A program made the translations under genes and the position numbers. From Anaerolineaceae bacterium (lineage in GTDB: Bacteria; Chloroflexota; Anaerolineae; Anaerolineales; Anaerolineaceae), in the NCBI GenBank assembly GCA_017417055.1, contig JAFPZX010000134.1, forward strand, positions 46,712 to 110,711: a stretch of DNA of 64,000 bases, given 5' to 3'. The notes below the pieces were generated by a model. The model searched no databases, was not told where the DNA came from, and saw only the letters and a list, made by a program, of their open reading frames with translations. Shown piece by piece: positions 1,469-56,178 of the stretch (its first letter is position 1; every line of letters starts with the position of its first letter).

Positions 1469-1485
1469 ATTACAGAATTATCTAT

Positions 1486-1578
1486 GGAAGCACTGATTAA
1501 TTGAGGTTCGGGGACGGTTCTCCCGAGGAACAAGGGGAACTGTCCTCACGCCTTCACAGAAATTAATCAGCATTTTCC
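1486..1578. repeat. MITE-like element, copy 1 (intergenic)
   Basis: A block of about 93 bp with inverted ends: CTGATTAATT at 1493-1502 and AATTAATCAG at 1561-1570, with similarity extending a few bases outside each. The interior folds as GGACGGTTCTCCC against GGGGAACTGTCC (about 12 bp including two G-T pairs). The first 69 bp align without gaps to 54044-54112 (53 of 69 identical by hand count). No transposase gene is inside, so it would be a non-autonomous element. Confidence 0.7.
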
Positions 1579-1590
1579 TATATAATAAAA

Positions 1591-53267: not shown

Positions 53268-53725
53268 ATGATATTATTCTCCTCAATAAAATTACGCTTT
53301 TCATGGTAACTGTTCAGTACCGGGACTGTTACCGCAAACTCATTCTTGAGTCGAAGGGGACTGTCCGAATTACCCGGTTGGCGTATGCTCTAAATACTTA
53401 CTTTTCATAGAACACGGGAATATTTTTTGACTTTTCTCAAAAATGACATAAACGCCCGTAATCCAAAGTTTATTGAATTATAACAGCATTGTCAATTCTG
53501 ACAATTATTTAAACCGCGTTTCGGAATATATGAATTTTTAGGAGAAAAGGTACCTGTTCAGTATCGGGACTGTAACCATAGAAGCGGATTCAAGTCGGAG
53601 GGTGCTTGTCCGGATATCACGATTTTACATGCTTAGAGCAGTTACGATACAAGTTTCACTGAATAAGGTAAATAAAACGCTCTATATCACATATATACGA
53701 TACTCATTCTTCTGTTTTCATATCC
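53268..53725. repeat. Gap holding two diverged direct repeats
   Basis: These 458 bases have no gene. Two related blocks of about 90 bases, 53306-53395 and 53550-53640, each begin with CTGTTCAGTA(C/T)CGGGACTGT and continue with alignable but diverged sequence (GAGTCGAAGGGGACTGTCC against AAGTCGGAGGGTGCTTGTCC). Related pieces occur at 18910 and 57095. The first copy can pair GGTAAC with GTTACC around the core. Confidence 0.6.
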
Positions 53726-54655
53726 CTATGATTTGGAAACAGTTCGAACAGCACCGGAAAGTATTGTTTTCCCCGTCATCGGGTCACTTGCGGCAGAAAG
53801 TTTTCCACCCGGTTCATACAGTGTGAGTAAAATCTTCCTGCCCTCATTTTGAGCCAGATACATTCCAACCGCGGCACTGCCGCTGGCACAGGAATTTTCC
53901 CAAAATATGGTTCCGCTTCCGGGAACAAAGACAAGCGGCGTCAAATGATATGCGTCATTTTCCCGGTTCAAAAACATCAGGCCTAAACCATCTGACTGCA
54001 ATTCATTACACCATTTTTGAACTGCCAACTCGGCATCATTAGGGAAGCACTGATTAATTCGGGATCGGGAAGAGTCCGCCTGAGGTATGTAGGGAACTGA
54101 CCTCTCGCCTTCTTCTAAATTATTCAGCGTTTCCTTAGAATTATGGACGAAATCATAAAAGTGAGAATCCGGCGTTATGATGATGTGAATGATACCCTCC
54201 ATGATGACAACCGGTAATTCATCAGACAACTGATTATAGGTAAACCTTCTTTTACTTATCGAAATAGGGGCAGGCATTTCAATCGAAGTTTTGAAGGTAA
54301 CTGCGTCAACCGGTTCAACGCTGACAGAAACCGGATCAGACGTTCCGGATACACGCAATTTCACGCCAATTGATTGATCCGGTGCAGAATGAAACAGATT
54401 CAAAGCATAAAATACCGAGGCACAGCATGACGCATTCCCGCAAAATTCCCCGCCCGCCATACGCAGATCTATATCATATCCGTCCTCCGATGGATCGGGA
54501 AAATGAACGAATCCGACCTGTTCTACTTCCGGATGCGCTTTCATGATCACAGCCGCAACATCAGGCTGGTCTTCAATACGCACGTCACCTTCCACCAAAG
54601 CCGTAACATTCCCCGCCGGATCAAAAATACTGTATCGATAGGAATTACTATTCAT
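53726..54655 (-). CDS. DapF-like amino acid epimerase/racemase with inserted element
   Basis: A 309-residue protein of the diaminopimelate epimerase fold. The two active-site cysteines are present: GGEFCGNASCCA (Cys 72) and FWENSCASGSAAVG (Cys 256). N-terminal YSIFDPAGNVTALVEGD differs from true DapF, so it belongs to a side branch that includes other cofactor-free amino-acid racemases. Residues about 177-202 (start LNNLEEGERSV) are encoded by a MITE-like element that keeps the frame. The neighbouring polar amino-acid importer suggests an amino-acid substrate. Whether the insert leaves activity intact is unknown. Confidence 0.8.
   Translation of the reverse strand: MNSNSYRYSIFDPAGNVTALVEGDVRIEDQPDVAAVIMKAHPEVEQVGFVHFPDPSEDGYDIDLRMAGGEFCGNASCCASVFYALNLFHSAPDQSIGVKLRVSGTSDPVSVSVEPVDAVTFKTSIEMPAPISISKRRFTYNQLSDELPVVIMEGIIHIIITPDSHFYDFVHNSKETLNNLEEGERSVPYIPQADSSRSRINQCFPNDAELAVQKWCNELQSDGLGLMFLNRENDAYHLTPLVFVPGSGTIFWENSCASGSAAVGMYLAQNEGRKILLTLYEPGGKLSAASDPMTGKTILSGAVRTVSKS
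54043..54134. repeat. MITE-like element, copy 2 (inside the dapF-like gene)
   Basis: Inverted ends CTGATTAATT (54050-54059) and AATTATTCAG (54118-54127) enclose 78 bp, exactly as in the copy at 1493-1570, and similarity extends several bases beyond both ends. Seventy-eight is a multiple of three and the inserted frame is open on the minus strand, so the gene remains intact. Interior identity to copy 1 is about 77% over 69 bp. Confidence 0.75.
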
Positions 54656-54681: not shown

Positions 54682-54758
54682 TGACACCCCAAAACCTTAC
54701 ACCTGATACCTGACACCCGACACCCAACACCTGATACCTGATACCCGAAACCCGACAC
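54682..54758. repeat. Degenerate ACACCTGATACCTGACACCC tract
   Basis: Tandem variants of ACACCTGATACC and TGACACCCGACACCC fill the gap between the ABC ATPase and the dapF-like gene. The same words recur at 57310-57331. A low-complexity intergenic tract; no function seen. Confidence 0.6.
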
Positions 54759-55517
54759 CTAATTCTCAAATACACGCAAAAACTGCTTCGTCCGTTCTTC
54801 CTTGGGATTATCAAAAACCGCGGAAGGATCACCCTGCTCCACAATCAACCCGTCCGCCATGAAGATCACTCGATTGCTGACCGCTTTCGCAAAAGGCATT
54901 TCATGCGTCACCACGACCATGGTCATCTTTTCCTCAGCCAGCTGCCGGATCACCTTCAGCACTTCACCCGTCAGTTCCGGATCCAGCGCGGATGTCGGTT
55001 CGTCAAAAAAGAGGATCTCCGGTTTCATTGCCAATGCCCGGGCAATGGCTACACGCTGCTGCTGCCCACCAGAAAGTTGATAAGGATAGGATTTTGCTTT
55101 GTCTTCAATACCCATTTTCCTCAGCAGCTCCATGGCAGTGGCCTCTGCCTCATCCCTGCTTTTCTTTTGCACCTTCATAGGTGCGTCCGTCAGGTTCTTC
55201 AAAATATTGTAGTGAGGGAACAGGTTAAACTGTTGGAATACCAGACCGCAGTAACTTCGGAACTGACGCAGCTCTTTTGGCGAAACATAAACCACTTTTC
55301 CATTATCATCGGTATAAGCCGCACGTTTCCCCATATAAAGGATCTCACCGCCATCAATCGTTTCCAAAAATGTCGCACAGCGCAGCAGCGTGGATTTTCC
55401 AGACCCGGAGGGACCGATCACACTGACAACTTCACCTTTATCGACGCCAAAACTGATGTCATGCAGAACGCCCAACCCGTCAAAATGCTTTTTAATGTGA
55501 TTCATTTCAATGATCAT
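54759..55517 (-). CDS. Polar amino acid ABC importer, ATPase
   Basis: GlnQ/HisP-type ATPase of 252 residues. The start at 55517 follows GCGGGGG; the frame is open further upstream but overlaps the permease gene. Walker [22 protein letters not shown]-loop [13 protein letters not shown], signature [17 protein letters not shown], Walker [16 protein letters not shown] and H-loop [12 protein letters not shown] are intact. Energises uptake with the permease and binding protein upstream in the same minus-strand operon. Confidence 0.95.
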
Positions 55518-55530
55518 GCTGTCCCCCGCC

Positions 55531-56178
55531 TTATTTATAATAATCCATTGATTTTTCGATGCGTCCCATGACAAACTCGACCAGGTAATTTGCCGCAAAA
55601 TAAAATACACCGGCAATTACAAAAGGCATAAACGAAGTTTGCGAGGCAGAAATCTGTTTGGCAAGGGAAAATACCTCCTGATAAGCCAATGTGAAGGCCA
55701 GTGAGGTATCTTTCACCAGGGTGATGACTTCATTGGTCACGGAAGGCATGATCCGTTTGACAACCTGAGGGAGGATAATGCGCATAAAGGTCTGCATTTT
55801 GGTATATCCGAGCACCTCAGCCGCTTCATATTGTCCGACAGGAATCGATTCGATGCCGCCGCGATAGATCTCCGCGAAATAGGCAGCGTAATTCAGGATG
55901 AACCCGATCGCCAGGGCGGGAAACCGCCAACCGCGGATCGACCAGCCGAACAGATAATATGGACCGAAGTACCAGGCCAGCAGCTGCAGCATCAGCGGCG
56001 TCCCGCGCATCAGGGAAATAAAACCACGGGTGATCCAGCGAACCGGGGCAAAGCGGGATTTCCGCAGGAATGCCACCACCATACCCAGCGGCAAAGAACC
56101 GGCCAGCGTTAAGGCAAACAATCCGCAGGCCCTCAGCATCCCTACACTCATCGTCGAAAGCATTTTGGATAATGTCAT
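55531..56178 (-). CDS. Polar amino acid ABC importer, permease
   Basis: HisMQ/GlnP-type permease of 215 residues. The ATG at 56178 with AGGA nine bases upstream is preferred over a TTG at 56196. Helices include [20 protein letters not shown]; the ATPase-contact EAA loop is [33 protein letters not shown] precedes it. Thirteen bases before the ATPase start. Confidence 0.94.

Follow-up and report, generated by a model that had tools for sequence, protein, structure and literature searches.

An IS5-type MITE read in frame within a DapF-like enzyme gene of an Anaerolineaceae bacterium

Background

The gene at 53726..54655 on the minus strand encodes a DapF-like or histidine-racemase-like enzyme of 309 aa, and the question raised by this locus is whether residues ~174-205 of that enzyme were supplied by a mobile element. 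The window, by which is meant the whole 64,000-nucleotide stretch of DNA that was analysed, belongs to an Anaerolineaceae bacterium whose genome is a 4.41-Mb draft estimated to be 85% complete. An initial annotation of the window had described a 78-bp block with 10-bp inverted ends inside the gene, matched by an intergenic copy and likened to the Rickettsia palindromic elements (RPEs). With this locus, the question of whether transposable elements provide usable protein segments in bacteria beyond Rickettsia becomes testable.

Anatomy of the element in the window

The miniature inverted-repeat transposable element (MITE) in the DapF-like gene is 92 bp long (54043..54134, plus strand) and was matched by the family model with an E value of 1.6e-16, this copy being itself one of the 39 sequences behind that model. 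It starts with GGAAGCACTGATTAAT and closes with an imperfect inverted copy of the same sequence; an end-motif search placed these 16-bp terminal inverted repeats at 54043..54058 (plus strand) and at 54119..54134 (minus strand, on which the right end reads GGAAACGCTGAATAAT). Comparison of the flanks revealed a perfect 4-bp target-site duplication, TTAG, at 54039..54042 on the left and 54135..54138 on the right. The second MITE copy, also 92 bp (1486..1577, plus strand), lies 3' of a TAA codon at 1466-1468 in a frame read by eye, and is bounded by an equally perfect duplication, CTAT, at 1482..1485 and 1578..1581. The end motif GGAAGCACTGATTAATT was found in the window with zero mismatches at 1486 and 54043, and four times when up to three mismatches were allowed, against 0.32 matches expected.

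Both copies are where they had been reported: 57 of 78 inner bases are identical without gaps between 54050-54127 and 1493-1570, and the runner-up places in the window reach 36/78 on the same strand and 39/78 on the other. The span of 78 bp with 10-bp ends turned out to be the inner part of both copies, whose true ends are 7 bp beyond it on each side; the size of the element is therefore to be corrected to 92 bp, with 16-bp inverted ends and a 4-bp duplication. As a single strand, the intergenic copy folds to one long hairpin (-40.6 kcal/mol, z -5.6), and the gene-borne copy forms a weaker one (-30.8 and -27.7 kcal/mol by strand, z -2.2 and -2.8).

The gene-borne copy has 78% identity to other family copies across its whole length. 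Of its 92 positions, 19 depart from the consensus, a single one of which falls in the outer 17 + 17 bp (P 0.0007); in the 21 other 92-bp copies that align without gaps and have 10 to 30 differences, this region always holds at least two. Its closest 92-bp copy is 20 differences away, and a sibling sharing its core was not seen. Either its source was a lineage with an already drifted core that landed recently, a reading favoured by the perfect duplication, or the core was altered after insertion. Among the 19 changes, 3 are synonymous, 15 are non-synonymous, and 1 would by itself generate a stop; purifying selection on the inserted peptide is not evident from them. Erosion of the core hairpin by translation was considered and rejected, since the DapF core ranks 55th of 57 in stability but the core in a second gene, RlmD, ranks 8th of 57.

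The MITE family in the genome and the genus

The initial annotation implied more copies than chance would give, and this was confirmed. With up to two mismatches, the 16-base end matched the genome 82 + 87 times, against 0 + 0 times for a reversed control, and the family model detected at least 150 whole-element copies, all with E <= 2.6e-4; the latter count is a lower bound, 150 having been scored of 2108 candidates. The two main length classes are 92 bp (45/150) and 89 bp (48/150). Identical 4-mers adjoin the exact ends in 42/150 copies; when the ends were allowed to slip by 1-2 bp, this rose to 52/150, compared with 8/150 in a control with ends displaced by 30 bp. The most common duplicated 4-mers are CTAA, TTAG, TTAA, and TTAT. 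Across the genus (14 genomes), the family-model search at E <= 0.001 found 9, 2, 2, and 1 copies in four of the 13 congeners and no match in the other nine.

RNA-level conservation was not detected in the family, none of the 6 consensus pairs having changed on both sides. A search of the window against Rfam at gathering scores returned only a tRNA, and a phage search with the element gave no match.

Examination of ~437 kb of loci from the same genome yielded 22 more end pairs outside the 150 copies, some of which enclose other cores and some of which are nested or neighbouring copies. A second family with the same inverted ends, ~119-121 bp in length (L037, L041, L055, and L008:895-1013), has mostly YTAR-like flanks and an unrelated palindromic core of the TGACTCAA type. 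A third, of 110 bp, combines the same ends with a GGGACAATGGGG-type core (L016:1874-1983 and L035:1407-1516).

Transposase partner and class assignment

The DDE transposase domain PF01609 was found at five places in the genome, and a perfect family end, with TTAG in front of it, accompanies only one of them (L103). The transposase at L103 contains one in-frame stop and is positioned at a contig end, the second element end not being found before the contig stops; its product scored 279.5 bits with NF033581 (IS5 family transposase, NCBIfam), for which the cut-off is 140. Another transposase fragment is located at the end of contig C1. In the 85% complete draft, all copies seen of the autonomous element are interrupted or lie at contig ends, and none is intact.

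An uninterrupted candidate partner was identified in the congener G012 (L382). It is 1,227 bp long and carries GGAAACGCTGATTAAT at each end, enclosing a 332-aa open frame without stops whose product shares 98% identity over 287 residues with the L103 protein. Both of its ends contain all 16 bases of the MITE end motif (16/16), and its flanks, CTAA and TTAA, are a non-identical pair. A YTAR-type 4-bp target duplication is typical of IS5. Because its ends are shared with the IS5-family element of G012, the element studied here is a non-autonomous IS5-type MITE: it is short, carries no transposase, has a high copy number, and produces a 4-bp duplication of YTAR type. The finding thereby names an autonomous partner, and the MITE is probably moved in trans by an IS5-family transposase of this kind.

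The host enzyme

The best solved relatives of the enzyme are 6l4l (labelled diaminopimelate epimerase; E 4.8e-23) and 9cr6 (histidine racemase). A profile of 12 homologues, from which the window protein was left out, matched 6l4l with E 9e-42 and 9cr6 with E 4.7e-35. With NF033599 (CntK), the protein scored 115.8 bits and missed the cut-off of 300, and it is called DapF-like only. Ten proteins were compared with Pfam, namely the DapF-like enzyme and nine from the list of open reading frames (ORFs) that span copies of the element; no Pfam family was found for the enzyme, nor for two of its homologues. Cys72 and Cys256, which from their position and motif we take to be the DapF catalytic pair, are both present, and the insert falls between them, as the initial annotation had it. 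The ORF upstream of the gene (54759..55616, minus strand) was judged by eye to encode an ABC transporter ATPase, and ORFs of the same kind adjoin the homologue in five relatives.

Insertion in the DapF-like gene

The minus-strand translation of the gene runs ...FVHNS KETLNNLEEGERSVPYIPQADSSRSRINQCFP NDAEL..., and the element together with its duplication amounts to 96 bp, or 32 codons, which are read through in 53726-54655(-). The ORF stays open when the element and one TTAG are removed. The frame had rightly been described as kept; the gain, put at about 26 residues, is 32. In alignment, every one of the 85 homologues has 32 residues in the corresponding segment, against 64 for the window protein, and the empty site is therefore exact. 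These homologues comprise 80 + 5 sequences, 4 of them identical to those of congeners G005, G006, G012, and G013, so that 81 are distinct proteins; the 80 are the best of 372 relatives found in a scan of named genomes, and the five relatives without exactly the 32 residues are four congeners and one paralogue from the same genome. At E <= 1e-8, a DapF-like gene was found in 5 of 151 genomes, its own included. That homologues in other genomes do not carry the insert residues, on which the earlier proposal hinged, thus proved correct for all 85. The insertion site shows no length variation among the 81 distinct aligned homologues, and the locus is a clean natural experiment in which a transposon of known class adds exactly 32 residues to a conserved enzyme.

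In the profile alignment with 6l4l, a three-residue gap is found close to the insertion point, ahead of a conserved stretch that is taken to be a helix. On the basis of the sequence alignment and the DapF fold, we presume that the insert is placed in the loop preceding this helix.

The explanation that fits best, and which we hold with high confidence, is the insertion of an IS5-type MITE with target duplication, in frame, lengthening the enzyme. An IS5-family transposase would have acted in trans on the shared 16-bp ends, and a 92-bp copy would have been inserted at a YTAR target (TTAG) in the DapF-like gene, with duplication of the 4-bp target. The frame would have been kept and 32 residues gained because 92 + 4 = 96 is divisible by three and because the orientation and phase in which the copy landed are free of stops. 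Selection would remove most insertions in genes, and in-frame ones in tolerant loops or near protein ends would persist. The element anatomy, the duplication, the copy number, the matching ends of the congener's intact insertion sequence, the exact empty site, and the open frame were all observed directly; transposition in trans, selective survival, and the folding and working of the enlarged enzyme are what these observations suggest.

Integrity of the interrupted gene

The gene bearing the insert might be a decaying pseudogene whose function is covered elsewhere, since the same genome has an insert-free paralogue (G000:C36:4480-5292, L066), a 296-aa open frame located beside a similar ABC-type ATPase ORF. 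Because of this paralogue, the DapF-like gene could be dispensable. The insert is also without visible selection, and the window protein deviates more than average from conserved alignment columns: at 4 of the 62 columns conserved at 95% (homologue mean 0.95) and at 5 of the 73 conserved at 90% (homologue mean 1.99). Decay is nevertheless unlikely. The ORF is intact on either side of the insert, both expected cysteines are there, and all 41 columns that at least 98% of homologues conserve are unchanged. Deviation equal to or greater than that of the window protein was seen in 8 of 81 homologues at the 90% columns and in 3 of 81 at the 95% columns, and for paralogue L066 the numbers of deviations are 7, 4, and 2 at the 90, 95, and 98% columns, respectively. 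Given the unaltered columns at 98% and the homologues that are as deviant, the gene does not look decayed as judged from its sequence, and the enzyme function is putative.

Copies read in frame elsewhere in the genome

In-frame insertion of the MITE into genes was then assessed across the 150 copies. ORFs with at least 40 codons on each side were found to span 12/150 copies, of which two (DapF-like and RlmD) were taken as real genes. A looser rule (at least 20 codons on each side and 80 in all) produced 25 rows and added two glycosyltransferase paralogues on contig C157, one of them truncated, which have the insert in common eight residues after the presumed start. Other long spanning ORFs, inspected at 17 places, were rejected by eye as antisense, chance, or upstream reading. 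The clear in-frame copies are accordingly 4/150 and represent three independent genes (DapF-like, RlmD, and the glycosyltransferase with its truncated paralogue), the element core being read the same way in all four; since the remaining copies were judged by eye, four is the number found and not a proven total.

The RlmD case (L015:901-2388) contains an in-frame MITE in a protein that scores 350 bits with TIGR00479, against a cut-off of 183.55. The insert is absent from RlmD of congener G012, where the loop is short. In the sister species G006 (L220), a different near-perfect palindrome is read in frame in the same loop and has one further near-full copy (85%) in that genome, and unrelated long segments occupy the loop in G013 (L221) and G005 (L223). 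The loop is insertion-tolerant in general, and around the RlmD copy a clear target duplication is no longer present; for both reasons, RlmD is weaker evidence than the DapF-like gene.

Empty sites spanned by an ORF with at least 55 codons on each side numbered 15/150, or 38/150 if any of five trims was accepted, whereas the same holds for 278 of 529 YTAR sites taken from the flanks as controls (a single test). By this comparison, the copies avoid genes, and most sit between genes. With most other copies being intergenic, the enzyme described here is an uncommon, though clear, example of a protein in a gut bacterium that has been lengthened by mobile DNA.

These counts bear on the possibility that the family is an RPE-like system, in which the palindrome is kept compatible with coding in its length and open frame and is selected for survival inside proteins. 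The lengths of 92 and 89 bp, each with 4 bp added, are divisible by three, as is length plus 4 in 100/150 copies; minus frame 1 is open in 94/150 copies; and the in-frame cases have their core reading in common. Such a system is nonetheless highly improbable. The clear in-frame copies amount to just 4/150 in three independent genes, and the copies inherited their length classes from common ancestors, so that 100/150 does not represent 150 independent events. An open frame is unsurprising, given that over 31 codons it is expected by chance with P 0.23 for one frame and P 0.78 for any of six. Random insertion, after which harmless copies survive, is enough to account for the data, and therefore no special coding design is needed. 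A broader formulation, that this IS5-type MITE family is a source of ready-made, frame-keeping protein segments in a Chloroflexota lineage in the manner of RPEs, is put forward as a doubtful one. If it were true, the main length classes and the open reverse frame would make intragenic copies tolerable, proteins would have gained segments of ~31-32 residues of known transposon origin in loops or near N-termini, and the empty site would be exactly defined for the DapF-like enzyme.

There is virtually no prospect that an old lineage-specific insertion or native domain accounts for the 32 residues and resembles the repeat by chance: identity to the second window copy is just 57/78 over the inner bases, but the runner-up in the window is far behind (<=39/78), and this reading is refuted by the family match (E 1.6e-16 with a model that includes the copy, and 78% identity over the whole length), the element ends, the perfect target duplication, and the exact empty site.

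An ATG internal to the element (MNQC...) is a possible start codon at two loci, L132:1076-1618 (-) and L110:5-1729 (-), and the genes downstream are a GNAT acetyltransferase (the GNAT gene on C112) and a membrane protein.

Comparison with known systems

Like this family, other IS5-family-derived MITEs are short, lack a transposase, share inverted ends with IS5, produce a 4-bp duplication, occur in many copies, and can form hairpins; the present family differs from them in its host, a Chloroflexota lineage close to Flexilinea. Among the literature matches listed, no paper dealt with a family having these ends, and a search combining Flexilinea with transposable elements found no paper. To our knowledge, RPEs have no autonomous partner and REP repeats no 4-bp target duplications.

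The likeness to RPEs is one of behaviour: in each case, a palindromic repeat is read in frame inside unrelated conserved enzymes, as stated for RPEs in a 2024 review (PMC10969869), and here in the DapF-like enzyme, RlmD, and the two glycosyltransferase paralogues. The initial comparison with RPEs was sound insofar as the in-frame insertion is real and has to be moderated as regards frequency, since a large share of copies in coding frames was not found (4/150), whereas nearly half of RPEs are within ORFs according to that review (PMC10969869). The element behaves as a Rickettsia palindromic element does, yet by class it is an IS5-derived MITE.

The suggestion that such elements are rarely described outside Rickettsia has to be qualified, in-frame insertions of other palindromic repeats having been published (PMC3733652 and PMC10969869). 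The 2024 review regards in-frame fusions via intragenic MITEs as not unusual, notes that RPEs have reached an unusually high frequency, and considers a similar mechanism elsewhere conceivable (PMC10969869). PMC3733652 describes REP repeats (GTAG/CGTC) as small palindromes present inside ORFs of several or many bacteria and links them to tyrosine transposases. The MITE resembles REPs as a small palindromic repeat inside ORFs and differs from them in having IS5-type ends and 4-bp duplications, in contrast to the tyrosine transposase link given for REPs (PMC3733652).

Other repeats near the gene

Two further repeats were noted beside the DapF-like gene. A 29-bp direct repeat (53305-53333 and 53549-53577; 90% identical, 244 bp apart) sits between the gene and the next ORF, and a degenerate tandem repeat with periods of 7, 14, 28, and 35 bp occupies 54682-54760, immediately upstream of the gene.
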